DNA from: Haliovirga abyssi
GTDB lineage: Bacteria > Fusobacteriota > Fusobacteriia > Fusobacteriales > Haliovirgaceae
Reading direction: 5' to 3'
Length of the DNA stretch: 64,000 bases
Assembly (NCBI RefSeq): GCF_030295325.1
Contig: NZ_AP027059.1
Span: forward strand, 124,001 to 188,000
A program made the translations under genes and the position numbers. Below, one piece after another: positions 20,840 through 45,162 of this stretch. A model generated the notes under the pieces. It saw only the letters and a list, made by a program, of their open reading frames with translations. It did no database searches and was not told the origin of the DNA. Every line of letters starts with the position of its first letter. Position 1 is the stretch's first letter.

Positions 20840-21811
20840 TTAATAACCAGTATATGATTTTAAAAGTTCTCTTTTTTTAACATCCCATAAATTAACTTTA
20901 GCATCTCCGCCAGAAGTTAATAATGTACTTGATGTAGGAAAAAATACTGCATTATAAACTTGTTTATCATTTGTTTGAATTTTGTCAACTAAAGAAAGCG
21001 AATTAGCGCCATAGAGATATACATATTTATCTGAAGATGCTACTGCTATTAAATCATTATCAGAACTCCAAGATACAGAATTCAAATTTTTATCAGCTGG
21101 AACGTCAATTGTATTAGTTACTTTAAGGTCCTTAACAGATGTAATACATAATTTCAAATCCCAACTGACAGATGCAATATAATTATTATCAGGAGAAAAA
21201 GCTATCCCTGTAATCCAATCATTATGAACATTTGAAATAGTATCTATTTTTTTTAAGTCGCTAGATTTTATTAAATATAAACTACCATTATCTCCACCAA
21301 TAGCGATATACTGTTTGTTTGGGGATGTTGTAACAGATATAATTTTGCATGGCATAGAAATCATATTAACACGTGATAGTGAATTAATATCATAAAAAAC
21401 TAAATTACCGTCAACGCCACCAGAAATAACTATATTTTCTTTTGATCCAAAAGTAACGTCCATAACTTTTCCAGTATGATTTTTAACAGAAGCAATTAAT
21501 TTTTTTGAATTAAAATCAAATATAAAAACTTTTCCTGTAGAGCTGCCAACAGCAAAATATTTTCCACCAGGAGATATTGCAACAGTAGTTAGAGCGCCTT
21601 GATATAATTCAAAAGTTTTTATAATTATATTTTTGTCAAGGTCCCAAATTATTGCTGTTTCATCATTGCTAACAGAAATAGCTTTATTTCCAAACGGGTA
21701 TTTAACGATATCTGTTACAGAATCAAAATGTCCCTCATTTAATGTAAATGGTTCTGAAAAAACTAAGATTGAAAAAAATAAAAATAAAAAAATTGTAAAT
21801 ATGTGTTTCAT
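20840..21811 (-). CDS. Secreted WD40 beta-propeller protein
   Basis: The 323-residue protein has an N-terminal signal peptide (hydrophobic residues 4-18, likely cleaved near SEP). The mature part is filled by about seven WD40-type repeats, each ending in a motif such as IIWDLD, VFIFDF, LVFYDI, LYLIKS, LCITSV, VYLYGA or VNLWDV. One seven-bladed propeller is therefore expected in the periplasm or on the surface, most likely as a binding scaffold. No catalytic site is evident. It is monocistronic on the minus strand, with a gaggtg site before the ATG. Its partner is unknown. Confidence 0.85.
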   Translation of the reverse strand: MKHIFTIFLFLFFSILVFSEPFTLNEGHFDSVTDIVKYPFGNKAISVSNDETAIIWDLDKNIIIKTFELYQGALTTVAISPGGKYFAVGSSTGKVFIFDFNSKKLIASVKNHTGKVMDVTFGSKENIVISGGVDGNLVFYDINSLSRVNMISMPCKIISVTTSPNKQYIAIGGDNGSLYLIKSSDLKKIDTISNVHNDWITGIAFSPDNNYIASVSWDLKLCITSVKDLKVTNTIDVPADKNLNSVSWSSDNDLIAVASSDKYVYLYGANSLSLVDKIQTNDKQVYNAVFFPTSSTLLTSGGDAKVNLWDVKKRELLKSYTGY

Positions 21812-22198: not shown

Positions 22199-24829
22199 AT
22201 GGATAAGAAATTAATAGAGGATATAGAAAATGAAATAGGTCATAAAATATGTGGATATCCAACTAAAAAAGGGACTCCATGTAAAAATTTACCAGAACCT
22301 GGAGAAAAATTTTGCAAATTACATTCTAAAATATTAAAAGAAAAAATAGAACTTGGAGAAGAAGAACCGATTTTATTAGAAGAATCTAATAAATTAGAAG
22401 AGATCGATAAAATTTCAGAATTATTAATAGATGAAGATAAGAGACTTGATATAGAAAGCGATATAATGGCTGAACAGGAAATTGAGGGCTTATTATCTGA
22501 GGAAAGTGAAAAGATTGAAAATGAAAAAAATGGGTTTAATACAGAAGAATTGAATGAAAATATAGATTTAGAAGAATTATTAGAAGAAGTACCAGAGGAA
22601 AAGATAGAAGAATCAGAAGAAGAAGCTGAAAATTCAGAAGATTTAGAAGAATCTGAAGAAGAAGTTGAAAATCCAGAATCTGAAGAAGAATTTTTAGAAG
22701 AAGAAAATGAAAAATCAGAAGATGTAGAGCCAGAATCAGAAGATTTAGGTGAAAATATAGATTTAGAAGAGTTATTAGAAGAAGTACCAGAGGAAAAGAT
22801 AGAAGAATCAGAAGAGTTAGAGCCGGAATCAGAAGAATTAGATGAAAATATAGATTTGGAAGAATTACTAGAAGAAGTACCAGAGGAAAAGATAGAATAC
22901 TCAGAAGAAGCAGTTGAAAATTCAGAAGATTTAGAAGAATCTTTAGAAGAAGAAAATGAAAAATCAGAAGAGTTAGAGTCAGAATCAGAAGAATTAGATG
23001 AAAATATAGATTTGGAAGAATTATTAGAAGAAGTACCAGAGGAAAAGATAGAATACTCAGAAGAAGCAGTTGAAAATCCAGAGGATTTAGAAGAATCTTT
23101 AGAAGAAGAAAATGAAAAATCAGAAGAGTTAGAGTCAGAATCAGAAGATTTAGCTGAAAATGTAAATTTAGAAGAATTATTAGAAGAAGCACCTGAGGAA
23201 AAAAAAGAAGAATTAGAAGGAGAAACAGTTGAAAATCCAGAGGATTTAAAAGAACTTTTAGAAGAAGAAAATGAAAAATCAGAAGAGTTAGAGCCGGAAT
23301 CAGAAGAATTAGATGAAAATATAGATTTGGAAGAATTACTAGAAGAAGTACCAGAGAAAAAGATAGAAGACTCAGAAGAAGCAGTTGAAAATCCAGAGGA
23401 TTTAGAAGAATCTTTAGAAGAAGAAAATGAAAAATCAGAAGAGGTAGAGTTTGAATCAGAAGAACTGGGAGAAAATATAGATTTAGAAGAATTATTAGAA
23501 GAAGCACCTGAGGAAAAAAAAGAAGAATTAGAAGGAGAAGAAGCTGAAAATCCAGAGAATTTAGAAGAATCTTTAGAGGAAGAGAATGAAAATGCAGAAG
23601 AGTTAGAGTCAGAATCAGAAGATTTAGCTGAAAATGTAAATTTAGAAGAATTATTAGAAGAAGCACCTGAAGAAAAAAAAGAAAAATCTGAAGAATCGAA
23701 GAAAGGGGAAAAAAGCATGCCAGATGATTTGGAAGATATAGATAAACTTATATCTGAAAATTTAAATTCAAATGATGAAATACCTATAATAGATGATGAC
23801 GAAGATGATTTTTTAAGTGGATTAGATGAAATAGACGAAGATACAAATATTGATGAAATGGTAAGTGAAAATGTTGAAAAAGAAGAAGAAGAACTGTTTG
23901 AAAAGGCATCTTTGGAACCGGAAATAAATAAAAAAACAGACGAAGAAGAGTTTTCTAGCTTAGAATTAGCAGAAGGAGAAAGCTTAGAAAAAGAGAAATC
24001 TAAAAAAAGAAAAAAAGAAAAAAAGAAAGTAAATATAGATTTAAAATATTTTATTATAAAAAATAAATATAAAATTTTAGCAATTATTGGAGGGCTGATT
24101 TTAATATTTATTTTGGGAAAAATATTTATTTTTAAAGGAACGAAAAAAAATAAAGCTAGTGTAAAATCTATTAATAATGGATCTCTTAGCAAGAAAAAAT
24201 CTATAAAAAAAGAGAGCTCGCCGCTAGGAGGAGAAATTGTAGAAAGTGAAAATATAAATCAAAATAATATAGTAGACACAGAAAATAAAGAAGTTATGGA
24301 AAATAATTCTGAAAATGTCATTAACAATAATGATTTAAATGGCTATTTAATTACTTTAGATAATTTGTTAAAAAAGCTATCTGAAGAAAAAAACAAGGAG
24401 ACTCAAATAGAAATTAAGAAAAAAATATCAGAATTAAAATTAAAAATATCAGAATTGTCAAAAAAAGAGGATGTATTATTAGAGAATAGAGTAAAAAGAA
24501 TCAATTCTAATTTATTAGTATTAAATATAGATAAAATTAAAATTGATGGATTTACATTAGTGCTAGGGTTGCAAGGGAAAAGTTTGAATTTAAAAAATGA
24601 GATAACAAAAGAAAAAAGTTATAGAGATATATTTTATGTTGTAAAAAATATATTTGAAAAAGAAAAAAAGATAAATACAATAAATATAAACGTTTTTCAA
24701 GGGGATAAAGAAGTTAATAAAAAAATTGAAATTACTGCAAGGAGATATGAATATGAAAATATAAAAAATAAAAAAGATACTTATGAAAATTTAATTGATA
24801 ATTTTAAAGTAACCATTATAGAGAGGTGA
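22199..24829 (+). CDS. Zinc-motif, glutamate-repeat, single-span membrane protein
   Basis: I do not recognise a named family for the 876-residue whole. Residues 16-42 hold a CGYPTKKGTPC ... FCKLH motif (Cys18, Cys28, Cys39, His42), a likely small zinc site. Residues about 120-500 are an extremely acidic tandem array of a 52-residue unit. A lysine-rich stretch (about 600-612) precedes a single membrane segment (about 618-640). The last 230 residues contain a predicted coiled coil and a short alpha/beta domain. Positive charges before the span suggest the acidic part is cytosolic and the C-terminus periplasmic. It is 7 bases before a TPR gene and upstream of pilB, so a pilus-related scaffold role, FimV-like in logic, is possible but unproven. 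Confidence 0.7.
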   Translation: MDKKLIEDIENEIGHKICGYPTKKGTPCKNLPEPGEKFCKLHSKILKEKIELGEEEPILLEESNKLEEIDKISELLIDEDKRLDIESDIMAEQEIEGLLSEESEKIENEKNGFNTEELNENIDLEELLEEVPEEKIEESEEEAENSEDLEESEEEVENPESEEEFLEEENEKSEDVEPESEDLGENIDLEELLEEVPEEKIEESEELEPESEELDENIDLEELLEEVPEEKIEYSEEAVENSEDLEESLEEENEKSEELESESEELDENIDLEELLEEVPEEKIEYSEEAVENPEDLEESLEEENEKSEELESESEDLAENVNLEELLEEAPEEKKEELEGETVENPEDLKELLEEENEKSEELEPESEELDENIDLEELLEEVPEKKIEDSEEAVENPEDLEESLEEENEKSEEVEFESEELGENIDLEELLEEAPEEKKEELEGEEAENPENLEESLEEENENAEELESESEDLAENVNLEELLEEAPEEKKEKSEESKKGEKSMPDDLEDIDKLISENLNSNDEIPIIDDDEDDFLSGLDEIDEDTNIDEMVSENVEKEEEELFEKASLEPEINKKTDEEEFSSLELAEGESLEKEKSKKRKKEKKKVNIDLKYFIIKNKYKILAIIGGLILIFILGKIFIFKGTKKNKASVKSINNGSLSKKKSIKKESSPLGGEIVESENINQNNIVDTENKEVMENNSENVINNNDLNGYLITLDNLLKKLSEEKNKETQIEIKKKISELKLKISELSKKEDVLLENRVKRINSNLLVLNIDKIKIDGFTLVLGLQGKSLNLKNEITKEKSYRDIFYVVKNIFEKEKKINTININVFQGDKEVNKKIEITARRYEYENIKNKKDTYENLIDNFKVTIIER
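22556..23690 (+). repeat. Tandem 156-bp coding repeats
   Basis: Eight copies of a segment encoding ENIDLEELLEEVPEEK or a close variant occur within the acidic-repeat gene. Full units are 52 residues (156 bases); the second copy is shortened to about 31. Sequence differs between copies by point changes (IDL/VNL, VPEEK/APEEK), and higher-order alternation is visible. Copy number could vary by slippage or recombination. Confidence 0.85.
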
Positions 24830-24835
24830 GAGAAA

Positions 24836-26152
24836 ATGCCAAAAAATAAAAAAGATGTAATGCTAGAAGCGAGTTTAATGATGGTAAGAAATGAACTAGA
24901 ACAAAAAACAGGCAAAGTGGTGGCAAGCAAATCAAAACCTAAAAATCAAGATGAATTTTTAAAAAAAATAAAATCAAAGAAAAAAGAACAAAGTTTAAAT
25001 GGAGTGGATATATTTAAATTAAATAGAACAAATAAATTTGACAAAGAGATAAATATAGATGCTGTTATTGAAGTGGTGAAAAAAAAATTATGGAACTCTC
25101 CTAGAAGTTTAAAATTAATAAATGTTATGCTTGCATCATATATTTTACAAAGAAACTACAGTAAAGCTGGATTAGAATTAAAAAAAGGATTAAATATTGA
25201 TTCAAATGATTTGGATATAAATTATAATGGAGCAGAATTGCTTTTTAAGATTGGAGAAATAAATAGAGCTAAGGAACTGTTGAAAAATATAATTAGTAAA
25301 TACAAGGATAAAGAAGCATTATATTTTTTGGGAATGATATTGTATTTAGAAGGGAATAAAGAGCAAGCGATTGTAGTTATAGCAGAATCTTTAAAAGATG
25401 ATTCTAATGTAACTAGAGTAGATAAAAATTTTGCGTTTTTATTTATAATAAAAGAAGATGTTGAAAAAGAGTTAGAAATTTTAAGTAAATCTTTAAAAAG
25501 AGTAGTTGGGAATTTAGATTTTAGAATTGTGAAATCGTATTATGAAATTTTAACAGGTAAGTTAGAAAAAAATGATGCTAATGAAAAAATAATAATGAAA
25601 TTAATTGCAGAAGATAAAAAATATTTACCTTGTTTAAAAGTTAATATGGGATTGAAGGCAAAAAAGAGTGGGGATTTAAAAGAAGCAGTAGAAAATTATA
25701 ATCAAGCAATTAAACAAAATCCTAAATGTATTTGTGCAAAATTAGAAAAAATAGATATTTATTTAGAAGAATCTAAATATGAAAAAGCAGGGGAAATATT
25801 AGAAACAATTATAAAAAGTAATGGGAAATATTTGCCAGTATTACAGAGGGCTTTGGAGTTTGAATTTTATTCAAAAAACCAAAGCGAAACAGAAAAAATA
25901 GCAAGAAAAATAGTTAAAATAAAAAAGGATAGTTTAATAGAGGTGTATAATAAAGAAAAAATCATATTAAAATTATCTTTAAATGATATTATTGAAGGAT
26001 TTTATGGGAAATTAAAAATTATATTAGATAAATATAGAGATTTGAATCCTAAATTTAGATTTTTAGGATATAGTGAAATGGCAACATATAAGCTATTTAG
26101 AAACATAAAATTATGTGAAATAGATTTTTATAAGGAGGGATTTGTAAAATGA
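24836..26152 (+). CDS. TPR-repeat protein
   Basis: This 438-residue protein has no signal peptide or membrane segment. After a basic N-terminal ~80 residues, helix pairs typical of tetratricopeptide repeats run from about residue 90 to 350. They include KAGLELKKGLNIDSNDLDI, EAVENYNQAIKQNPKCICA and KAGEILETIIKSNGKY segments. It likely acts as a cytosolic scaffold. A gagaggtgag site precedes the ATG and the gene follows the acidic-repeat gene by 6 bases, so the two products may act together. Its end overlaps aroE by 4 bases (ATGA). A specific function cannot be given. Confidence 0.75.
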   Translation: MPKNKKDVMLEASLMMVRNELEQKTGKVVASKSKPKNQDEFLKKIKSKKKEQSLNGVDIFKLNRTNKFDKEINIDAVIEVVKKKLWNSPRSLKLINVMLASYILQRNYSKAGLELKKGLNIDSNDLDINYNGAELLFKIGEINRAKELLKNIISKYKDKEALYFLGMILYLEGNKEQAIVVIAESLKDDSNVTRVDKNFAFLFIIKEDVEKELEILSKSLKRVVGNLDFRIVKSYYEILTGKLEKNDANEKIIMKLIAEDKKYLPCLKVNMGLKAKKSGDLKEAVENYNQAIKQNPKCICAKLEKIDIYLEESKYEKAGEILETIIKSNGKYLPVLQRALEFEFYSKNQSETEKIARKIVKIKKDSLIEVYNKEKIILKLSLNDIIEGFYGKLKIILDKYRDLNPKFRFLGYSEMATYKLFRNIKLCEIDFYKEGFVK

Positions 26153-27000
26153 GAATTGATTCAAAAACAAAATTAATATCTTTATTAGGGTATCCAGTGG
26201 GGCATAGCAAATCGCCATTAATGCATAATGCAGAATTAGAAACATTAGGAGTAAATGCTATATATACAGCAATGGAGATAGAACCTCAAAAATTAGGAGC
26301 GGTAGTAAATGGATTAAAAAGTATAAATAATTTTATAGGCGCAAATGTAACCATACCACACAAAGAAAATGTAATGAAATACGTAGATGGATTGACAGAG
26401 GAAGCAAAAAGCATAGGAGCAGTAAATACATTATATTTTGAAGATGATAAATTAATAGGAGATAATACAGATGGTCGAGGTTTTATATTATCTCTTATGA
26501 ATGATAGTGGATTTGATCCAAAAGAAAAAGAAGTGTTGGTATTAGGAGCTGGTGGTGCAGCTAAAGCGATAATTACAAAATTAATTCAAGAATCAGTTAA
26601 AGTTGTAAATATTTATGAATTGAATATAGAAAAAAGTAGAGAAGTAAAAAAACAGATAGAAAATATAAACTCTTCTACAAAGATAAATTTAATATTAAAA
26701 GATGAATTAGAAAATTGTGCAAAGAAAAGTGATCTGATTATCAATTGTACTCCTGTAGGATTAAAAGAAAATGATCCTTTAATTTTGTCTGAAAATGTAT
26801 TTAATGAAAAACAAGTGGTTTTCGATTTGATATATAATCCTGAAAAAACCAAATTATTATTAGCGGCAGAAAAGAAAGGGGCTAAAATTTTAAATGGACT
26901 TGGAATGCTAGTGTATCAAGGGGCGTTATCATTTGAAAAATGGATAGGAGAAAAACCAAATGTTGAAAATATGAAAGAGACTATAAAAAAATCTATGTAG
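26149..27000 (+). CDS. aroE: Shikimate dehydrogenase
   Basis: AroE reduces 3-dehydroshikimate with NADPH. The 283-residue protein shows the shikimate-binding GHSKSPLMHN near residue 18, the catalytic-lysine motif NVTIPHKENV near residue 65, the NTDGRG motif near residue 103 and the nucleotide-binding GAGGAAKAI near residue 131. It overlaps the upstream TPR gene by 4 bases. It is separated from the other aro gene in this window (19.5 kb), and sits before pilB by chance or by operon capture. Confidence 0.95.
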   Translation: MRIDSKTKLISLLGYPVGHSKSPLMHNAELETLGVNAIYTAMEIEPQKLGAVVNGLKSINNFIGANVTIPHKENVMKYVDGLTEEAKSIGAVNTLYFEDDKLIGDNTDGRGFILSLMNDSGFDPKEKEVLVLGAGGAAKAIITKLIQESVKVVNIYELNIEKSREVKKQIENINSSTKINLILKDELENCAKKSDLIINCTPVGLKENDPLILSENVFNEKQVVFDLIYNPEKTKLLLAAEKKGAKILNGLGMLVYQGALSFEKWIGEKPNVENMKETIKKSM

Positions 27001-27092: not shown

Positions 27093-28817
27093 ATGGTAAT
27101 TACAAGAAGACAGGAGATGTTAGGAGAAAAATTATTAAAAGCTGGATTAATTAAAAAAGAGCAATTGGAAGAGGCATTGTCACAGCAAAAAATGACGAAA
27201 GAAAAAGTAGGAGAAATATTAGTAAGATTAGGCTATATATCTATAGATGAAATTTTACCATTGCTTGCTTCTCATTTAGGAGTAAAAAGTACTCGTATAG
27301 AATTAGAAGAGTTAGATGAGGATTTAAAAGATGTTTTGCCATTAGATTTAATGAGAAAACACCATATATTTCCTATTAGGAAAAGAGGAAATAAATTAAT
27401 TCTTGCAATGGCAAATCCAAATGATTTGTTTGTGGCAGATGATGTACAATTAAGGACAAAATCAGTAGTAATACCTGTATTAGCTTTAAAAAGTGAAATA
27501 GAATCAGCTATAGACCATATTTCGCAAAGAGAAGAAAAAAGTTCAGAAGAGCAAATGAGTGATGATATTTTAAATGAGTTAGAAGGTTTTGAAAGTACAG
27601 ACTTAGAATTTGTAGAAGATAAAGATGAAAACTTAGAGGATTCTTTAAATTCTGATAGTGCACCAATAGTAAAAGCAGTAAATGCATTAATAGCAAAAGC
27701 AATAGCTGTGGGGGCAAGTGATATTCATATAGAACCTTATGAAAAAAAAGTAAGAGTAAGATTTAGAATAGATGGAGTTTTGAGTGAAATAAAAAGTTTT
27801 CCAAAACGAGTTATAGGGCCTATGGCATCTAGAATAAAAATAACATCAGGACTAGATATAGCTGAAAAAAGATTACCTCAAGATGGAAGGTTTAAAACAA
27901 CGACAAGGGGAAGAAGTATAGATTTTAGAGTATCAACACTGCCAACTGTTCATGGAGAAAAAATAGTTATGCGGATATTGGATAAAGGGAATTTGAAATT
28001 AAATATGGAAGATTTGGGATTTGAAAAAGAGGAGTTAGAGAGATTTGATAAAGCTTTAAGTAATCCATATGGAATGATACTTGTAACAGGTCCAACAGGA
28101 AGTGGAAAAAGTACAACTTTATATTCAGCGTTAAATAGATTAAATAAACCAGATGTAAATATATCAACAGCGGAAGATCCGGTTGAATTTCAATTAGAAG
28201 GGATTAATCAAGTACATTGTAAAAAAGAGATTGGACTAGATTTTGCCTCAGCTTTAAAATCTTTTTTGCGTCAAGATCCAGATATAATAATGGTGGGAGA
28301 AATTCGGGATAAAGAAACAGCTGAAATATCCGTAAAAGCGGCGTTAACAGGACATTTAGTTTTGTCTACAATTCATACAAATGATGCGCCAAGTACAATA
28401 CAAAGGCTTACAAATATGGGAATGGAACCATTTATGCTGTCATCTTCTTTATTGCTAATAGAGGCACAAAGATTAGGAAGGAGAATATGCAGTAATTGTA
28501 AAACTGAAGTAAAAGCAAAAAAAGGACAAATTGTTGCATTGGGATTAGATTACGAAGAATATAAAGATGTAGTTTTTTATAAAGGAACAGGATGTCCTAA
28601 ATGTAACGGAACTGGTTACAAGGGTAGAGTGGGGTTTTATGAGGTTATGTATATAGATGAAGATATAAGAGAAGCTATAGCAAAAGGGGCTAGTTCAGAT
28701 GAATTGCGCAAATTGGCTAGGAAAAATGGAATGCGAACGTTAAGAGAACAAGCTATAATAAAAGCAAAAAATGGGGTAACAACAATTGAAGAAGTCCTAC
28801 GAGTTACTATGGAATAG
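27093..28817 (+). CDS. pilB: Type IV pilus assembly ATPase PilB / GspE family
   Basis: This hexameric ATPase powers pilin polymerisation at the inner membrane. The 574-residue protein has an N-terminal MshEN-type domain (about residues 1-150), which in some relatives binds c-di-GMP. The Walker A motif GPTGSGKST is at residues 333-341. The Asp box and Walker B include MVGEIRD, and a His box reads STIHTNDAP. A zinc site of two CxxC pairs (CSNC, CPKCNGTGY) is near the C-terminus. An aaaggag site precedes the ATG. No pilT follows, unlike many pil loci. Confidence 0.93.
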   Translation: MVITRRQEMLGEKLLKAGLIKKEQLEEALSQQKMTKEKVGEILVRLGYISIDEILPLLASHLGVKSTRIELEELDEDLKDVLPLDLMRKHHIFPIRKRGNKLILAMANPNDLFVADDVQLRTKSVVIPVLALKSEIESAIDHISQREEKSSEEQMSDDILNELEGFESTDLEFVEDKDENLEDSLNSDSAPIVKAVNALIAKAIAVGASDIHIEPYEKKVRVRFRIDGVLSEIKSFPKRVIGPMASRIKITSGLDIAEKRLPQDGRFKTTTRGRSIDFRVSTLPTVHGEKIVMRILDKGNLKLNMEDLGFEKEELERFDKALSNPYGMILVTGPTGSGKSTTLYSALNRLNKPDVNISTAEDPVEFQLEGINQVHCKKEIGLDFASALKSFLRQDPDIIMVGEIRDKETAEISVKAALTGHLVLSTIHTNDAPSTIQRLTNMGMEPFMLSSSLLLIEAQRLGRRICSNCKTEVKAKKGQIVALGLDYEEYKDVVFYKGTGCPKCNGTGYKGRVGFYEVMYIDEDIREAIAKGASSDELRKLARKNGMRTLREQAIIKAKNGVTTIEEVLRVTME

Positions 28818-28849: not shown

Positions 28850-28887
28850 ATACATAAAGTTCTTTTTCCGTAAAAAGGGGTGTGGAA

Positions 28888-30135
28888 ATGTTTAATTTTA
28901 AGTATACTGCTATTGATAAACAGGGGAATAAAAAAAATGGGGAATTACAAGCAAAAAATGAGAAGGATTTAAAGTCGGCTTTAAAAGCAGCAGGCTTTAT
29001 TTTAATTAAAGCACAAAAAAAAGGTGGTTCCAAAAGTGGTTCAAGTGGTTCAAAATCGAGCTCAAACAAAACTGGAGAAAAAAAAGTATCTATGTTTAGT
29101 AGAGTTACTTTAAAAGAGCTTACAATATTTAGTAGACAACTAGCCACAATGATATCTTCAGGAGTTACACTTTTAAAAGCAATTACAATTTTATCAGAAC
29201 AAAATGAGAATCCATTGTTTAAACAAAAATTAACACAGATAAAAAGTGATATTGAATCAGGTCAACCTTTTTCAAATGCGTTATCAAAACATCCGAAACA
29301 GTTTGATAAACTATATGTAAGTATGGTAAGGGCTGGAGAAGAAAGTGGAGCATTAGAGGTAGTTTTAAATAGATTAGCTACTAGTATGGAAAAAAATCAG
29401 GAATTAAGAGGAAAAGTAAAAGGTGCTATGATGTATCCTGCAATAGTAATGATTGTAGCGCTTAGTATTACTTTTATGTTATTAACATTCGTAGTTCCTA
29501 CATTTACATCTATGTTTAAAGATGCTGGAATGCAGCTTCCAGGATTAACCCAAAAAGTGGTAGATGTAAGTGATTTTTTAAGAGTTTATTGGTGGGTAGT
29601 TATAATTGGAGTTATATTATTGGTAGTTGGAATAAAAAAATATATAAATACACCAAAAGGTAGAAAAAAATTAGATGGATTAATGTTAAAATTGCCAATA
29701 ATGGGGTCTTTTACAAGGAAAGTTTCAGTTGGAAGATTTACGAGAACAATGGCGACTCTTTTGGATAGTGGAGTTCCTATATTAATGGCATTTGATATAG
29801 TATCTGAAACGGTTGGGAATGAAATTATTTCAGAAGCTATAATGGTAGCAAAATCAAGCATAAAAGAAGGAAATACAATAGCAAAACCTTTAGCAGATAG
29901 TGGCGAATTTCCGCTTATGGTAACTCAAATGATAGAAATAGGAGAAGAAAGCGGTTCTATAAGTGAAATGTTAAGTAAAGTGGCGGATTTTAATGAGAGG
30001 GAAGTAGAAGAAGCGGTAGCTGTAGTAGTATCTGCAATGGAACCGTTAGCAATTGTAGTAATGGCAATAATAGTGGGGACTATTGTAATAGCTATGTTTT
30101 TACCAATGTTTAAATTAAGTGACCTTGCTGGCTAA
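28888..30135 (+). CDS. pilC: Type IV pilus inner-membrane platform protein PilC
   Basis: PilC is the polytopic platform that PilB acts on. The 415-residue protein has two repeated GspF domains, with SRQLATMISSGVTLLKAI near residue 83 and GRFTRTMATLLDSGVPIL near residue 285, and about three membrane segments (around residues 185-210, 235-255 and 385-408). A serine- and glycine-rich linker (about residues 48-65) follows the N-terminal FKYTAID domain. The ATG at 28888 lies 7 bases after aagggg; a GTG six bases earlier is less likely. Its stop is followed by GAATGTTTGAAAAATA, which resembles one end of the palindromic repeat family. Confidence 0.93.
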   Translation: MFNFKYTAIDKQGNKKNGELQAKNEKDLKSALKAAGFILIKAQKKGGSKSGSSGSKSSSNKTGEKKVSMFSRVTLKELTIFSRQLATMISSGVTLLKAITILSEQNENPLFKQKLTQIKSDIESGQPFSNALSKHPKQFDKLYVSMVRAGEESGALEVVLNRLATSMEKNQELRGKVKGAMMYPAIVMIVALSITFMLLTFVVPTFTSMFKDAGMQLPGLTQKVVDVSDFLRVYWWVVIIGVILLVVGIKKYINTPKGRKKLDGLMLKLPIMGSFTRKVSVGRFTRTMATLLDSGVPILMAFDIVSETVGNEIISEAIMVAKSSIKEGNTIAKPLADSGEFPLMVTQMIEIGEESGSISEMLSKVADFNEREVEEAVAVVVSAMEPLAIVVMAIIVGTIVIAMFLPMFKLSDLAG

Positions 30136-30166: not shown

Positions 30167-31075
30167 ATGATAGGGACAAGAGATATTATAGAAATAAAAA
30201 ATATAAGTAAAAATTATAAAGAGATAGATATATTTAAAAGATTAAAAGGTCATAAAAGTAAAATTGGAATAAACAATATTTCATTAAATGTAAAAGAAGG
30301 GGAGATTTTTTCTATAATCGGGTTAAATGGTTCTGGAAAAACCACATTAATGAAGTGTATGTTAGGACTATTGAAACCTGATTTTGGCGAAATAAAAGTT
30401 TTTGGAAAATCAAAATTAAAAAGAAAAGATTATTACAATATAGGATATCTACCTGAAATATCTTATTATCCTAAAGAGGTAAGGTTGAAAGATTTAATTA
30501 ATTATTATGCAGAACTTTATAATATGGATAGGTTAAACAGAAATAAGATTATAGATGAAATTTTTGAAATATTAAAATTAAAAGGTAGAGAAAAAGATAA
30601 ATTAGAAAATTTTTCTAAAGGAATGGTTCAAAAAGTTGGGATAGCACAAGCTATAATGAATGAACCGAAACTATTATTTTTAGATGAGCCAATGTCAGGG
30701 CTTGATCCGCTGGGAAGAAAATTAGTAATGGATATTATAAAAAAAATGAAAAGTAAAGGGACGACGATAATTTTGAATACACATATTTTAAGTGATGTAG
30801 AAAAACTAAGCGATAGAATTGTAATATTAGATTCTGGAGAATTAAAATCAGTTGTAGATTTTAAAAATTATATGCAAATAAAGTCAAAATATCAAATAAA
30901 AATAACTAAACCTTATAAAAATTTTGTAAGATTAGGGAGTTTTTATGTTAAAAATGTTATAGAAACAGAACTAGATGAAATAATTGGGGATTTGATTTTA
31001 AGAGGAGTAAAAATAGTTGATATAGAAAAGTTAAATGTTTCTTTGGAAAGATATTTTATAGAACAAATTAGTTAA
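30167..31075 (+). CDS. ABC transporter ATP-binding protein (PilH-like position)
   Basis: The 302-residue protein has the Walker A GLNGSGKTT near residue 50, the ABC signature FSKGMVQKVG near residue 146 and the Walker B LLFLDEPMSGLDP near residue 166. A 70-residue C-terminal extension follows. It pairs with the next gene, an ABC-2-type permease. In Myxococcus xanthus an ABC pair (PilH, PilI) and an accessory protein (PilG) are encoded beside pilA and needed for piliation; the same arrangement is seen here between pilC and pilA. The substrate is unknown, and the PilH equivalence is inferred from position. Confidence 0.88.
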   Translation: MIGTRDIIEIKNISKNYKEIDIFKRLKGHKSKIGINNISLNVKEGEIFSIIGLNGSGKTTLMKCMLGLLKPDFGEIKVFGKSKLKRKDYYNIGYLPEISYYPKEVRLKDLINYYAELYNMDRLNRNKIIDEIFEILKLKGREKDKLENFSKGMVQKVGIAQAIMNEPKLLFLDEPMSGLDPLGRKLVMDIIKKMKSKGTTIILNTHILSDVEKLSDRIVILDSGELKSVVDFKNYMQIKSKYQIKITKPYKNFVRLGSFYVKNVIETELDEIIGDLILRGVKIVDIEKLNVSLERYFIEQIS

Positions 31076-31088
31076 AAGGGTGGTAGAT

Positions 31089-31844
31089 ATGAGACAAATA
31101 ATATCAATAGCAAAATTTACAATTAAAGAAAATATTTTTAATAGAGTATTTAATGGATTTATAATGTTTGGAGTAGTATTAATATTAGCTACTTCTGTAT
31201 TAAAAGATATATCATTATATGAAGAAAGTAGAGTGATTCAAGATACAGGACTGTTTTTAATAGAGTTTTTTGTGTTATTAATAGCAATATTTATATCTTC
31301 TAATCAATTTTTAAAAGATAAAAAAGAAAAATCTATTTATATAGTCTTGACAAAACCTGTGACACGTGGTATGTATATAGTAGGGAGATTGTTAGGAATG
31401 ATCTTAAGTATACTATTAAATATAGCTATAATGGGAGGAATACTTTTTGGTATTGTTATATGGCAGCATGGAAAAATAGATATAAATTATATTTATATGC
31501 TGACGGCAATATTTTATAAATTGTCAATAGTAGCCTCTATTGGTGTGTTTTTTTCTGTAATATCAGATTCATTTATAACATCAAATATATTTACTTTTTC
31601 TGTATATATATTAGGGCATGCAGTTTTAGAATTAAAAATGTTAGGAGATAAAGTTTCAAATCCAATTTATAAATGGATTTTAGATCTTTTGTATTATATA
31701 CTTCCTAATTTTAGAGTATTAAACTATAGAGATTATTTGACACCTGAAAAGTTTGATTTTGTAAATTTAACTTTATATACATTTGGATATATATTTGTAA
31801 TAACAGCTATGACAAATATAATTTTTCAAAATAGAAAGATATAG
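31089..31844 (+). CDS. ABC-2-type permease (PilI-like position)
   Basis: The 251-residue protein has about six hydrophobic segments and the ABC-2 permease motif KSIYIVLTKPVTRGMYIVGR after the second segment. The ATG at 31089 lies 8 bases after aaggg and is chosen over the GTG at 31080. It follows the ATPase gene by 13 bases and overlaps the region of the next ribosome site, so the three genes form one unit. Its role would be the membrane half of an exporter acting with pilus assembly. Confidence 0.82.
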   Translation: MRQIISIAKFTIKENIFNRVFNGFIMFGVVLILATSVLKDISLYEESRVIQDTGLFLIEFFVLLIAIFISSNQFLKDKKEKSIYIVLTKPVTRGMYIVGRLLGMILSILLNIAIMGGILFGIVIWQHGKIDINYIYMLTAIFYKLSIVASIGVFFSVISDSFITSNIFTFSVYILGHAVLELKMLGDKVSNPIYKWILDLLYYILPNFRVLNYRDYLTPEKFDFVNLTLYTFGYIFVITAMTNIIFQNRKI

Positions 31845-31855
31845 TGGTGAAGATT

Positions 31856-32536
31856 ATGACTATTATAAAAAATTTAATTTTTTTAGGAATCGGTGTTGCT
31901 TTTATATTTTTTAGTGGGAACTATATGATGCAAATGGATAATAAATTAAAAAATGAAGAGTATCATGGAGAAAAAGGAAAGTCTACAATAACTGTAAATT
32001 TTAAATTAATGGGAATGAAAAGGTTTGGAAGTGATGTTTTATGGATAAAACAAGTATTGGATACAGGTTCATTTGATTATGGTGCAGATAGAATTAAAAA
32101 AAATTCTGAAGCGGTATCATATCTTGATCCATATTTTATAGGGAATTATTATTTTTCAGGAACAGTTGTAGCGTTAATAAAAAAATATAAAAGATATGAT
32201 TATGGATTGGAAATTTTAGGAAGAGGGTTAAAATATAATCCTAAAGATAAATATTTGAAGAACTATATAAGTGGAATAGTTGCTGCATCTAAAGGAGATA
32301 TAGAAGGGGTATTAAAGGAATTTGAAAGGATATTAAAGACACATAGAGATGATAGGATGATACATACAGTGGCATTTATATATGAAGAAAAGTATAAAAA
32401 AACTAAAGAGATTAAATATTTGAAAAAAGCAATAGGGTATTGGAAGAGATTAGAAGAATCGAAAGATGAAAATTATAGAAAAATAGCAGTTGTGAAATTA
32501 GGGAAGTTGGAAGAGGTTATTGGGGTAAATAAATAA
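31856..32536 (+). CDS. Membrane-anchored TPR-like protein (PilG-like position)
   Basis: The 226-residue product has one N-terminal membrane segment (about residues 3-22). The periplasmic part contains helical, TPR-like stretches, for example YDYGLEILGRGLKYNPKDKY and KGDIEGVLKEFERILKTH. The ATG at 31856 follows gtggtga and is preferred over the GTG at 31844. It is the third gene after the ABC ATPase and permease and immediately upstream of the pilin region. No family name can be given; by position it may be the counterpart of PilG. Confidence 0.65.
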   Translation: MTIIKNLIFLGIGVAFIFFSGNYMMQMDNKLKNEEYHGEKGKSTITVNFKLMGMKRFGSDVLWIKQVLDTGSFDYGADRIKKNSEAVSYLDPYFIGNYYFSGTVVALIKKYKRYDYGLEILGRGLKYNPKDKYLKNYISGIVAASKGDIEGVLKEFERILKTHRDDRMIHTVAFIYEEKYKKTKEIKYLKKAIGYWKRLEESKDENYRKIAVVKLGKLEEVIGVNK

Positions 32537-33543: not shown

Positions 33544-34212
33544 ACTATATTTTCAACTATTTTTTATGCAATACTATTAACTGGAACAAGAGCATCTCTT
33601 TTAAGCATAGTTATAGCAGGAACTATTTTAATTTATTATTTAAGAAAAAGAATTTTTAAGAAAAACAGAAATTATTTTAGTATATTAATTATAGGTATTT
33701 TAATTGAATTATTATTAACAAATGGAGTTTTAAATCAAAGAATAAAAAATGCAACAAAATTAGATAAAGGCTCAACATATGCAAGATTGAATTTATATAA
33801 AAAAAGTATAATGATGATAAGCGAAAAGCCGATTATTGGACATGGAACAGGTAGTTATTATAAAGAAGAGTTAAATTATTATAATAGATTAGAAAATTAT
33901 TTTAAGCAGAATAAAAAGATAAAAATAAGCGAAAAAAAAGAGTTAGAAAATTTTTATTCTATAGCAGGTCATACACATAATGAATTTTTACAGATTTATG
34001 TAGAAAATGGAATTTTGGGATTTTTATTAATGTTATTTATTGTGATATATATAATATATGATTTTGTAGTTGATTATAGAGCGGGGAAGATAATAACTTT
34101 CTTGCCATTACTAGCTATTGTTATAATAACCAATTTTTCGTTTCCATTGCATATGATACATAATTTAGTTTTGACTGGAATTATGTTGGGGGGGAATAAA
34201 ATTGACAATTGA
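33544..34212 (+). pseudogene. Truncated O-antigen-ligase / pilin-glycosylase-like gene
   Basis: The frame is open from 33544, right after a stop codon, with no start and no ribosome site at its head. It encodes the C-terminal half of a Wzy_C-type protein: LLTGTRASLLSIV, then RLNLYKKSIMMISEKPIIGHGTG, then HTHNEFLQIYVENGILGFLLML, and a last hydrophobic region. The N-terminal ~200 residues with most of the membrane spans are absent. ATG codons from 33811 could only give a fragment. Genes of this family directly after pilA (TfpO/TfpW) glycosylate pilins in Pseudomonas and Acinetobacter. A decayed pilin oligosaccharyltransferase is therefore a reasonable inference. Confidence 0.7.
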
Positions 34213-35092: not shown

Positions 35093-38000
35093 ATGCAAAA
35101 AAAGGGATTTTTATTAGTAGCAATTTTAGTGTTATTTATGGCAGGGTGTAGCTTACCACCATTTAACACAAAGGCGAAATTAGATTATGATTTAGAAGGG
35201 GCTACAACGGAGTATAGTAATTTAAGTGCAGATAATACAAATGAATTTATAATGAGTATTCCAATAAAAGATGAAAATGCAGTTGGAGCTAATTTAGTAG
35301 AAGCAACAGTTTCTATAAATGGAGAAAATAAAACTGTAAAAATAATAGAAAATAAAGTGTCAGGAAATACAATTACACAAGTAAAAATAAATCCTTTTTT
35401 GGACACAAATGGAAATTTAATTAAAGCATTTACAGCATTAGAAGATTCAAATACTATAAAGATAGTTAAAATGAAGTTTAAAGATATAAATGAAAATGAG
35501 ATTGTTTTAGGAGAAATGTATAAAAGTATAAAAGTATCAAAATCAAGTTCTGGTACAACTTCTGGGGGAGAAGTAGATAATAAACCAGTTCCACCAACAA
35601 ATTTATCTTATGATGTTTCAGCCGATGGAAGCAAAATAACTTTAAATTGGATTGATAATGGAAATAGTTTAGAAAATGATATATTGGGATATAAAGTTTA
35701 TAGAGAAGAGACAAGTAATGGAGTGTATGAAGAAGGAAAAGAAACAGCATTATTAGCAAGTAGTGTAGCAATAGTTACAACTTATTCGACACAATATATT
35801 GATAGTAGCGTTACAGCAGGAAAAGCATATATATATTTAGTGACTGCAGTAGATAGAGCTAGTCAAGAAAGTACATATAAGAGTAAACCTCTATATGTAG
35901 CTATTTATAAGCCTGGAAATTATAAAGTAACATCTTTAGTTGGAGCTTCTGTAGAAGGTACTATAAATATAAAATTAACATGGACAAAACCAGTTAATTC
36001 AACAGAGTCAAATACAGCCACAGTAAAAGGTTATAAAATATATAGAAAAGATAATTCTTCTGGGTATATATTAATAAAGGATATAAATAATGCAGATACA
36101 GCAGAATTTATAGATTATGATAAAAATTTAGTAGAAAATAAAGAATACACTTATAAAGTAGTAGTTTATGATGAAATAGGTAAAGAAGGAGAAGCAGCAG
36201 AAACAACATCTATAAGAGTGAAAGATATAACAGCACCAACAGCACCGAGTGGCATAGTATTAACATTAAAACCAGCATATAAATTGAATATTGCATGGAG
36301 TAAAAATAATGATTTGGATTTGAAAGATTATACAATTGAATATACAGATAATATTAATAGTACGACTTGGAGTTCTATAACTATATCAGGAATAACAACA
36401 ACTGAAATAAGTTTGAATTCTTCAGAAACAGAAAAAACAATATATGTAAGAATGAAAGCAACAGATACATCTGACAACAAATCGGATTATAGCAATACAG
36501 AATCTATAATTATAGATTATAGTAGTTATATTCCGGCACCATCTAATATAGTTTTATCAGGTGGGCCTAAAAATGTTACTTTAACTTGGGATAAAGTAAC
36601 TGCAGTAGCAGGATATGATGTAATAGGTTATAAAATAAAATATGGAACAACTCCTACTAATTTAACAGAAATAATAGAAACTTTTTCAAATAATACTAAC
36701 ATAACATCAGCTACAACTCCAGGGGGAATAAAAACGGCTGGAATATGGTATTTTTCTATAGCTGCAGTAGAAAAAGGAGATGGAGAAAACAAAGTAGAAG
36801 GGGCATATAGTAGAATAGAAGATGTTGTGGTATATGATGATTTACCATTTTTAAGAGATGTATCTACAGATTTATCTCCAAAAGGAGTAATGGTAAAATG
36901 GAAAGATGTTTATGACAGTGAAACAACAGGATATGTAATATATAGAGCAGTTACGACAGGCGGAACACCGACAGAGGATGATTTTAGTTATTTAGAAGCA
37001 AAATCTAAAAGTGATTTTGAAGTTCAGCCTGACTTTAATGGCGGAAGTTATTCTTGGAAAGTATATCAAGATGAAAGTGCTAATGAAATAGGTAAAACTT
37101 ATTGGTATAAAGTAGCATTATATAATGGAGTTTATGACTCAACAAATCCAAAGACAGGTAAGTTTAGTCAATCTGTAGCAGTAGAAGATAAAGGAGCTCC
37201 AAAAGCAATAGAATATAGCACATTAAATGTTTCAGCAATGGAACCACAGCATAAAATGAGAATTAGTTGGGGAGGATATGTATTTGATAGAGAAGATTTA
37301 GCAGGATTTAAAGTGTATATATCAAGAACGGGAGAAGGCACATATTATTATGCAGGAAAAACAAGTAATTCATATATAGATTTAAATGTAAATAAAGATG
37401 GAGATTTTGATACAATTTCTTCAACATATCCACTTGAAAGAGAAGATGCGAAGTGGAAAAATATAGGTATAACAACAGGAAGTGGAATAACATCAGGAGC
37501 AGCAATAATATCTAACTCAGAAGTGAGTGGGATAGTAACAAATGTGAATAAAGATGATTATTTGAAAATAGAGGAACATTATTATAAAGTAACAGATAAA
37601 ACGGCCGATCATGTATCAGTAAAACCAAATATTATAGGGAATATATCTGCTGAAAAAGAGGTATATATGTACCAAGGAGATACAGGACCAATCACGGAAA
37701 CAAGAACAGTTAGTTTAAAAGATCCTATGGGAAATAGAATGTTTTATATAAAAGTAGATGCATATAATAAAGCAGGAAGAGAAAGTAGTCTTACAGCTTA
37801 TAAATGGATTGATATGGTTCCTCCGGCTCCAAAAAGATTAAATGTAAAAGTTAGTCAATACACAGATGACAATAGTAAACAAGTTGCAAAAATAGAATGG
37901 TCAAATAATATAGAAGCAACAAATTTTCAGGTGTATAAATTTGTTGGACAAAACAGTTTAAGTAGCAGTGATCTAAGTATAGAAGGATTACCAATAACAG

Positions 38001-38197
38001 GAGTTTTATTAGGAGAAACTTCAGATTATAAATACGAAGATGCAACATTTAATGATTTAACAGCTTCGACTAATGTGGTATATGCAGTTGTTCCAGTTGA
38101 TTCTTATGGAAATAAAGGGTCTTTATATGTTCTGGATAGTAATTATAAAGTAACTTCAACAATAATAACTGAAGCTTATGGAACAGTAGCAAGATAA
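35093..38197 (+). CDS. Large lipoprotein with about seven fibronectin type III domains
   Basis: The 1034-residue protein has a lipoprotein signal peptide with lipobox FMAGC (Cys19). After a domain to about residue 155, fibronectin type III-like domains follow one another, recognisable by LNWIDN, LTWTKP, IAWSKN, LTWDKV, VKWKDV, ISWGGY and IEWSNN strands, with GYKVYRE- or YKIYRK-type strands. It should be anchored in the outer membrane facing the surface or periplasm. Lying directly after a pilin and before pilD, it may be a pilus-associated adhesin or tip factor in place of PilY1, which is not encoded in this window. That role is inference. An aaaggagg site precedes the ATG. Confidence 0.8.
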   Translation: MQKKGFLLVAILVLFMAGCSLPPFNTKAKLDYDLEGATTEYSNLSADNTNEFIMSIPIKDENAVGANLVEATVSINGENKTVKIIENKVSGNTITQVKINPFLDTNGNLIKAFTALEDSNTIKIVKMKFKDINENEIVLGEMYKSIKVSKSSSGTTSGGEVDNKPVPPTNLSYDVSADGSKITLNWIDNGNSLENDILGYKVYREETSNGVYEEGKETALLASSVAIVTTYSTQYIDSSVTAGKAYIYLVTAVDRASQESTYKSKPLYVAIYKPGNYKVTSLVGASVEGTINIKLTWTKPVNSTESNTATVKGYKIYRKDNSSGYILIKDINNADTAEFIDYDKNLVENKEYTYKVVVYDEIGKEGEAAETTSIRVKDITAPTAPSGIVLTLKPAYKLNIAWSKNNDLDLKDYTIEYTDNINSTTWSSITISGITTTEISLNSSETEKTIYVRMKATDTSDNKSDYSNTESIIIDYSSYIPAPSNIVLSGGPKNVTLTWDKVTAVAGYDVIGYKIKYGTTPTNLTEIIETFSNNTNITSATTPGGIKTAGIWYFSIAAVEKGDGENKVEGAYSRIEDVVVYDDLPFLRDVSTDLSPKGVMVKWKDVYDSETTGYVIYRAVTTGGTPTEDDFSYLEAKSKSDFEVQPDFNGGSYSWKVYQDESANEIGKTYWYKVALYNGVYDSTNPKTGKFSQSVAVEDKGAPKAIEYSTLNVSAMEPQHKMRISWGGYVFDREDLAGFKVYISRTGEGTYYYAGKTSNSYIDLNVNKDGDFDTISSTYPLEREDAKWKNIGITTGSGITSGAAIISNSEVSGIVTNVNKDDYLKIEEHYYKVTDKTADHVSVKPNIIGNISAEKEVYMYQGDTGPITETRTVSLKDPMGNRMFYIKVDAYNKAGRESSLTAYKWIDMVPPAPKRLNVKVSQYTDDNSKQVAKIEWSNNIEATNFQVYKFVGQNSLSSSDLSIEGLPITGVLLGETSDYKYEDATFNDLTASTNVVYAVVPVDSYGNKGSLYVLDSNYKVTSTIITEAYGTVAR

Positions 38198-38393: not shown

Positions 38394-38987
38394 ATGGCAC
38401 TAAAAAAATTAAAAGAAAAATATAGCTACAATGATTATAAAAATTGGGAAGACAGCGAAGATTGGGAGATAATAAATGGTGTAGCATATAATATGTCGCC
38501 AAGCCCATCATCAGAACATCAAGAAATAGGGAGTAAAATATTAATAGAATTAGGGAATTTTTTAAAAAATAAAGAATGTAAATTATATTATGAATTAGAT
38601 GTAATATTGTCAGATGAAAATATATTAAAACCAGATATAATAGTAGTATGTGATAAATCTAAAATAAAAAAAAGAGGAATATTTGGAGCACCAGATTTAG
38701 CAATAGAGATATTATCACCATCTACCTCTATAAAAGATAAAACATTAAAATTAGAACTATATAAAAAATATGGAGTAAAAGAATATTGGCTAGTAGATCC
38801 AATATATAAAGATATTACAGTGCATATATTTGAAAAAGATGAGATAAAACTTTATACTTTAAATAATGAAAATATACCAGTTAATATATTTGAGAAATTT
38901 GCAATAAATATGGATGATATATTTGAAAAAGAGGAAACTAAACAAAAAAAAGAGGAACAAAACGAAATTGAACAAGAAGCAAAATAA
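38394..38987 (+). CDS. Uma2 family protein (DUF820, PD-(D/E)XK fold)
   Basis: This 197-residue protein follows the Uma2 pattern: GVAYNMSPSPSSEHQ near residue 29, ELDVIL, the PDIIVV strand, APDLAIEILSPST near residue 100 and LYKKYGVKEYWLVDP near residue 126. The Asp-Glu-x-Lys-like residues of a restriction-type nuclease fold are present, but activity of this family is largely unproven. It is cytosolic. Such genes are abundant in cyanobacteria and scattered elsewhere. Its position between two pilus genes, preceded by a palindromic repeat, suggests an insertion. An aaaggag site precedes the ATG. Confidence 0.85.
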   Translation: MALKKLKEKYSYNDYKNWEDSEDWEIINGVAYNMSPSPSSEHQEIGSKILIELGNFLKNKECKLYYELDVILSDENILKPDIIVVCDKSKIKKRGIFGAPDLAIEILSPSTSIKDKTLKLELYKKYGVKEYWLVDPIYKDITVHIFEKDEIKLYTLNNENIPVNIFEKFAINMDDIFEKEETKQKKEEQNEIEQEAK

Positions 38988-42145: not shown

Positions 42146-42158
42146 GGAGATGTTTAAA

Positions 42159-42428
42159 ATGGAAAAATTAAAAAATCATATGGAATATTTAGTAAATGAA
42201 GAATTAGAACGATATTTAGGTACTCAAGAAGGAATTTGTAAATGTGAAAAATGTAAATTGGATATGAAAGCGTATGCTTTAAATTTATTACCAGCGTATT
42301 ATATTGTATCTGAAAAAGGTTATGTTTATAGTAAAATAAGTGAAATGAGGCAACAATTTAAAGTGGATGTAATAAAAGCAGTAGTTGAAGCTGTGGAAAA
42401 AATTTCTGAAAATCCAAGACATAAATAA
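42159..42428 (+). CDS. ComFB family protein
   Basis: The 89-residue protein matches the late-competence protein ComFB family: N-terminal MEYLVNEELERYL, then CKCEKCKLDMKAYALNLLPAYYIVSEKGYVY, and a C-terminal AVVEAVEKISENPRH. (The middle motif runs over about residues 29-58.) Recent work on cyanobacterial members describes ComFB as a cyclic-dinucleotide receptor that acts on pili. The ATG at 42159 has an aaggag site at a normal distance; the ATG at 42150 abuts it. Placement between the minor pilins and pilM strongly suggests a role in pilus control. Confidence 0.85.
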   Translation: MEKLKNHMEYLVNEELERYLGTQEGICKCEKCKLDMKAYALNLLPAYYIVSEKGYVYSKISEMRQQFKVDVIKAVVEAVEKISENPRHK

Positions 42429-44724: not shown

Positions 44725-45162
44725 TTGAAAAATAAATTTAGATATATAATGATTTTTTTTATAGTAATGAATGTTATGGCAATTGCAGATAGTAATCCAT
44801 TAAAAGAGTATATATCGGATAAAGTATATTTTGAAGGACAGAAAAAATTTAAAGGTGGAAATGATATATTTAGAACTAAAGTATATTCAAAAGCTGATAT
44901 TTCAAAAGAATTGGATGCAGCAAGAGGAAGGATAAAAAGTGTATTTTTAAAAGTATCATTTATAATAGAGAGAAATCACAAATTGACAGCAACATTTTAC
45001 TATAAAGGAGAAGATGGAAGGGCAGCTAGAAAAGTAATTACTAATAGAAAAACTTTAAAAATTGGAAAATATTCATATAGTGTAATTGTAGTAAAAAACG
45101 GAATAGAAGTAATAGACCTAAAAACAAAAGTTAAAGTTAAGATAGAAAAAAAAGGGAGGTAA
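44725..45162 (+). CDS. Secreted protein in the PilP position
   Basis: This 145-residue product starts at TTG immediately after the pilO stop, with gtggtga upstream. It has a signal peptide (hydrophobic residues 6-19, likely cut near AIADS). The C-terminal half is beta-strand-like (LKIGKYSYSVIVV, GIEVIDLKTKVKVKI). In canonical loci PilP lies here as a lipoprotein that docks the secretin; this one lacks a lipobox cysteine, and I see no clear PilP motif. It may be a functional replacement. The family is not recognised. Confidence 0.6.
   Translation: MKNKFRYIMIFFIVMNVMAIADSNPLKEYISDKVYFEGQKKFKGGNDIFRTKVYSKADISKELDAARGRIKSVFLKVSFIIERNHKLTATFYYKGEDGRAARKVITNRKTLKIGKYSYSVIVVKNGIEVIDLKTKVKVKIEKKGR

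Follow-up and report, generated by a model that had tools for sequence, protein, structure and literature searches.

A pilus-linked, acidic-repeat membrane protein family of limited range in Haliovirga abyssi and other Fusobacteriota

Beside the type IV pilus genes of Haliovirga abyssi, a member of the Fusobacteriota, lie a gene for an acidic-repeat membrane protein with a single span (gene A; 22199–24829, + strand, 876 amino acids) and a gene for a predicted cytosolic tetratricopeptide repeat (TPR) protein (gene B; 24836–26152, + strand, 438 amino acids). A represents a protein family that is real, linked to pili, limited in range, and apparently undescribed, and a role as a scaffold is plausible for it. 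We give roughly even chances to a specific form of this idea, in which A and B are lineage-restricted accessory proteins that would form an inner-membrane scaffold of the Fusobacteriota type IV pilus machine. The DNA analyzed, hereafter the window, is a stretch of 64,000 nucleotides (G000 C1:124001–188000) from a genome of 2.73 Mb in two contigs, and positions are those of the window unless a contig is named. Relatives were sought among 98 Fusobacteriota genomes, a set in which the source genome is the only member of its own family and the relatives come from the same order or class. Family searches covered Pfam, NCBIfam, and PHROGs, and the Protein Data Bank (PDB) was compared by both sequence and fold.

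How closely are these genes tied to the pilus machine? A has two relatives in the set, in genomes G063 and G041 (33–35% identity; 33% over the C-terminal part in G063), while B has one strong relative, in G063 (E = 1.2e-49, 34% identity). The G063 locus belongs to a metagenome-assembled genome from another family (contig JAAYPW010000148, which ends inside the acidic part of A), and its gene order is A-B-TldD-like-aroE-pilB-pilC. In G041, as in the window, A stands divergent from a WD40 gene. Past the WD40 gene come an MlaA gene and then the pilus cluster, whose pilQ end is ∼1.8 kb from A and whose opposite end holds pilC and pilB. A is adjacent to a pilus locus in each of the three genomes where it occurs, and B in both of its two. 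Because sequence divergence is so high, this kept neighborhood is informative, and comparison of gene order leaves the linkage of A to type IV pilus loci well supported. An earlier note, made on the letters of the window before any search, had proposed an association with pilus genes, and it holds in these two distant relatives.

Two pairings recur at these loci: A with B in the window and G063, and A with the WD40 gene in the window and G041. The latter gene (20840–21811, − strand; PF00400), at L025:9204–10118 in G041, encodes an exported-looking beta-propeller protein and is a possible third partner. A homologue of it was not detected in the G063 genome, where the A locus stops at the contig end; in G046 the WD40 gene lies between Ddl-like and phosphoglycerate-mutase-like genes, not beside A, and homologues are otherwise scarce in the phylum. 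The C-terminal part of A found no relative in a collection of genome contigs and none among viral contigs, and B returned only the G063 record from the genome contigs. Weak profile matches to the C-terminal part of A arose in G053, G090, G049, G096, G088, and G040, as well as in G037, G016, and G091; these were short and partial, several with internal stops, and they are not counted as homologues.

What do the three A proteins have in common? Each has an acidic part that is probably cytosolic, one span, and the same C-terminal domain. The G041 protein, at 357 residues, is acidic ahead of its span and lacks both the N-terminal Cys/His motif and the long repeats of the window protein; so far only the window protein shows this motif and an expanded array, the G063 contig breaking off before the N terminus. 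By sequence comparison, then, the conserved core of A is a membrane span and a C-terminal domain encoded beside pilus genes.

The span is a single helix at residues ∼623–648 (24065–24142, + strand), preceded by a Lys/Arg-rich stretch, so that the one membrane span described earlier is borne out by the only hydrophobic stretch in the protein and by its modeled structure. A carries no signal peptide and has a lysine-rich stretch ahead of the span, on which grounds its N terminus is predicted to lie inside the cell and its C-terminal domain in the periplasm. AlphaFold2 places a poorly ordered linker after the span (residues ∼646–708), then a coiled-coil hairpin (713–771) and a beta-beta-alpha-beta-beta fold (776–874), with confidence for the folded part mostly 80–97 by predicted local distance difference test (pLDDT). 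An ordered domain is thus predicted (24335–24820, + strand; kept in G063 and G041), as the earlier note had anticipated, but it comprises ∼165 residues behind a poorly ordered linker rather than 230. Its sequence matched nothing over threshold in Pfam, NCBIfam, PHROGs, or the PDB, and its fold had no PDB match at E ≤ 0.001. Against viral structures, the best fold match was a myovirus lipoprotein (E = 1.1e-4). The C-terminal domain of MamM shares with A a small alpha/beta fold (E ∼ 0.3–0.5); however, it and the phage and clostridial lipoprotein domains are only 8–19% identical to A, are not significant in the PDB, and do not share its context. Profile searches with the N- and C-terminal parts of A likewise gave no family over the cut-off, which agrees with the original impression that no known family has this architecture.

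Between the N terminus and the span lies the acidic repeat array (22559–23695, + strand), which contains eight anchors of the form N[IV][DN]LEELLEE[VA]P. The anchors start at residue 121 and are spaced 65, 31, 52, 52, 53, 52, and 53 residues apart; the first two repeats are irregular and the last ends after ∼16 residues. The eight acidic 52-residue repeats first reported therefore survive as eight anchors in a strongly acidic tract, but only five are full units of 52–53 residues. Residues 112–540 hold 212 Asp/Glu against 23 Lys/Arg, for a net charge of −189. Tandem Repeats Finder gave a score of 1307 to a 156-bp unit present in 5.7 copies (22802–23695) and of 1389 to a double unit of 315 bp, both far above the threshold of 50. 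Units are 85–97% identical in DNA, and nonsynonymous divergence (dN) is below synonymous divergence (dS) in 10 of 10 unit pairs, the two being nearly equal in the pair 321/426. On the strength of this identity and of dN < dS, the array looks fairly recent in origin and maintained as protein. The possibility that the repeats are an artefact was rejected on the same dN and dS values together with a frame that stays open across the whole array.

At its N terminus A begins MDKKLIEDIENEIGHKICGYPTKKGTPCKNLPEPGEKFCKLH and carries a C-x9-C-x10-C-x2-H motif at residues 18–42 (CGYPTKKGTPCKNLPEPGEKFCKLH; 22250–22324, + strand) that includes all three Cys of the whole protein. This motif resembles a truncated HGGxSTG domain (NF041373; E = 1.3e-4), with which it shares the Cys/Cys/Cys/His pattern and a T-K-x-G-x-P-C segment between the first two Cys, and it is the best match to that model among the 98 genomes (21.3 bits in the genome search). 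However, its 21.6 bits fall below the curated cut-off of 29 bits, only model positions 1–25 of 38 are matched, and the HGGxSTG tail is not present after CxxH, where the residues read CKLHSKILKEK. In sequence terms the motif is a known kind of pattern though not a full member, and this part of A is not new. The zinc motif of the earlier note is accordingly present as a Cys/His pattern, but it resembles a described domain, and the intact homologue in G041 lacks it. A G041 hit in the motif search was rejected as an A-type motif, since it lies inside a ribosome-recycling-factor-like gene.

Gene B follows the stop of A after 6 bases, and its ribosome-binding sequence, GAGAGGTGAG, overlaps that stop, so the TPR gene that had been placed within 6 bases of A is indeed there. 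B matches PF14559 (E = 4.5e-16, 59.4 bits against a cut-off of 25) and has a non-TPR N-terminal segment that is kept in G063 (LEEKTG / LEQKTG ... NQDEFLK); its structure model is poor (mean pLDDT 48.9). Downstream, aroE (26149–27000, + strand) starts inside B, the two genes sharing 4 bases, and in G063 too it lies between B and pilB. Then come pilB, for the pilus extension ATPase (27093–28817, + strand; 69% identical to G063 pilB), and pilC, for the pilus platform protein (28882–30135, + strand). The 6-base gap, the 4-base overlap, good ribosome-binding sequences, and the lack of any terminator-like site between 22199 and 33000 on the + strand indicate that A-B-aroE-pilB-pilC is probably one transcript, an operon predicted from gene spacing. 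The acidic part of A had been suggested to act near the pilus motor; pilB and pilC do lie downstream, but aroE separates B from the motor genes. PilT homologues encoded elsewhere in the source genome fit a retractable pilus over secretion only, and their presence makes it likely that this organism has a retracting pilus in need of control.

How might A and B act on such a machine? From the features above we infer the topology of A, binding between A and B, the motor as client, and a polar location. A would sit in the inner membrane with its N terminus inside, its Cys/His motif and disordered acidic repeat tail in the cytosol, and its coiled coil and alpha/beta domain in the periplasm, where they may anchor it to the pilus alignment complex, to the secretin, or to the cell wall. 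In the tail, the LEELLEE segments, repeated as they are, would offer many weak docking sites. B, cytosolic and co-produced with A, would bind the tail, the motor, or both and gather motor parts (PilB or others) at the pilus machine.

The closest functional parallels are HubP of Vibrio and Shewanella, FimV of Pseudomonas, and SgmX of Myxococcus xanthus, and A and B would work like these but with the topology reversed and the TPR module carried by a separate protein. HubP/FimV proteins join an acidic region, which in HubP holds repeats whose number and length differ among species, to a TPR region, a single span, and a wall-binding domain in the periplasm; the partners of HubP dock chiefly on its acidic modules (PMC8789113, PMC12918733). 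The window pair likewise offers one span, a TPR module, a periplasmic domain by prediction, and a long acidic region, the tract of A being of the HubP type in its charge and its repeated units and probably cytosolic; HubP/FimV place surface machines, the role proposed here for A and B. Unlike HubP/FimV, A is predicted to be reversed (no signal peptide, cytosolic part first), lacks LysM, and has a Cys/His motif at its N terminus, and its TPR module is encoded by a separate gene instead of the same chain. FimV_core (TIGR03505) had no match in the source genome at E ≤ 1 and none in the A termini, and genome matches to the FimV C-terminal domain (TIGR03504) were all below the cut-off and elsewhere, with none in A or B. 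The FimV-like scaffold first suggested is therefore a good functional analogy, better drawn with HubP for its acidic repeats and TPR, but not a case of family membership. SgmX is, as B is predicted to be, a TPR protein of the cytosol; it stimulates the formation of pili and recruits PilB to the machine at the pole (PMC11580455). It has 14 TPRs, however, and works with MglA and FrzS, whereas the B gene adjoins a gene for a membrane protein; the likeness is that of TPR proteins in general.

Pilus-machine hub proteins are known mainly from Proteobacteria. A stronger version of our proposal, which we advance only tentatively and with some doubt, is that A and B evolved independently into a hub of the cell pole or of the machine, equivalent in the Fusobacteriota to HubP/FimV but with inverted topology and with acidic docking repeats on one protein and the TPR reader on the other. 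If so, the Fusobacteriota own an unrelated hub, a type IV pilus scaffold of acidic repeats and TPR arose more than once, and the rule that a combination of acidic repeats and TPR yields a machine scaffold would be open to comparative testing. The expandable repeat array would then offer a natural example of how docking sites can be tuned in number. Should the scaffold idea fail, A would still define a family of pilus-linked membrane proteins, restricted in range and until now without a name.

Several observations count against a pilus scaffold made of A and B. B was not detected in G041, either in the genome search or at the A locus, and most Fusobacteriota with a pilus-type secretin or the same pilus cluster have no detectable A; neither protein can thus be a core pilus part. 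The undescribed two-gene system of the earlier note stands as a linked pair in G063, but the presence of A without detectable B in G041 limits it. The periplasmic domain has no recognizable wall-binding or pilus-family match in profile and fold searches, the window protein has a weak charge bias across its span (the bias is clearer in the relatives), and enrichment of LxxLL-type motifs in the relatives is marginal, a hint only (P = 0.02 in G063, P = 0.26 in G041). In addition, aroE is a housekeeping gene, so co-transcription alone is no proof of shared function.

Could the periplasmic domain be what matters, with the acidic tail and B playing minor parts? A would then be a structural accessory of a PilM-N-O-like alignment complex. 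PilN/PilO-type proteins have a span, a coiled coil, and a small alpha/beta periplasmic domain, the layout of our A model, and the G041 protein, beside pilQ without motif, long repeats, or B, identifies the C-terminal part as the conserved piece. However, hhalign against the phylum's PilO and PilN profiles gave probabilities of 3.6% and 2.4%, which rejects homology at the profile level, and a check for the permuted ferredoxin-like fold found the predicted beta-beta-alpha-beta-beta order yet no PilN, PilO, or GspL/M structure among the best 50 fold matches. PilM, PilN, and PilO are, moreover, all encoded separately, and A differs from PilN/PilO in its large acidic cytosolic part. We consider such a role unlikely.

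Similarly improbable in our judgment is that A and B, with the WD40 protein, form a general envelope or cell-polarity scaffold whose genes lie beside pilus genes by chance. WD40 proteins often act as assembly platforms, and the WD40 gene is the most repeated neighbor of A apart from pilus genes. HubP, which also serves flagella and chemotaxis proteins, provides a precedent (PMC8789113). Nevertheless, the neighborhood of A is pilus-related in three genomes despite different arrangements. Far less credible is a nucleic-acid or metal-sensing role conferred by the Cys/His motif, whether in membrane-tethered regulation of pilus genes or in DNA capture during uptake. This would suit the resemblance to HGGxSTG, the gathering of all three Cys in the motif, and the presence of the competence-linked protein ComFB in the same pilus cluster, but the subthreshold match and missing HGG tail speak against it, as do the intact G041 homologue without such a motif and the adjoining acidic tail, which disfavors DNA binding.

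The rest of the pilus cluster has further features. Genes for an ATP-binding cassette (ABC) ATPase, an ABC-2 permease, and a small TPR protein lie directly after pilC (30167–32536); G041, G042, G044, G046, and G054 have them in their pilus clusters as well. By analogy, this set brings to mind the Myxococcus genes pilG/H/I, which have been described as indispensable for the translocation of pilin (PMC3724824), and may be a conserved, unnamed part of the Fusobacteriota pilus machine. Between two pilin genes lies a 141-amino-acid Wzy_C (O-antigen ligase) fragment (33787–34212), which may be what is left of a gene for a ligase or for pilin glycosylation. Inside the pilin cluster, a lipoprotein-like protein of 1034 amino acids with fibronectin type III domains (35093–38197) possibly serves in adhesion or at the pilus tip. 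The pilus cluster also contains a gene for a putative nuclease of the Uma2 type (38394–38987), and the ComFB gene lies between pilX and pilM (42150–42428; L025:15249–15521 in G041). The position between pilO and pilQ, where pilP is expected, is occupied by a gene for a 145-amino-acid protein (44725–45162) that matched no family over cut-off in the family searches and whose position is conserved across the pilus clusters of the phylum. Finally, three more secretin-like genes (C1:407326, C1:2343516, and C2:261709), besides pilQ at window position 45170, suggest that the source genome may carry several pilus or secretion systems.

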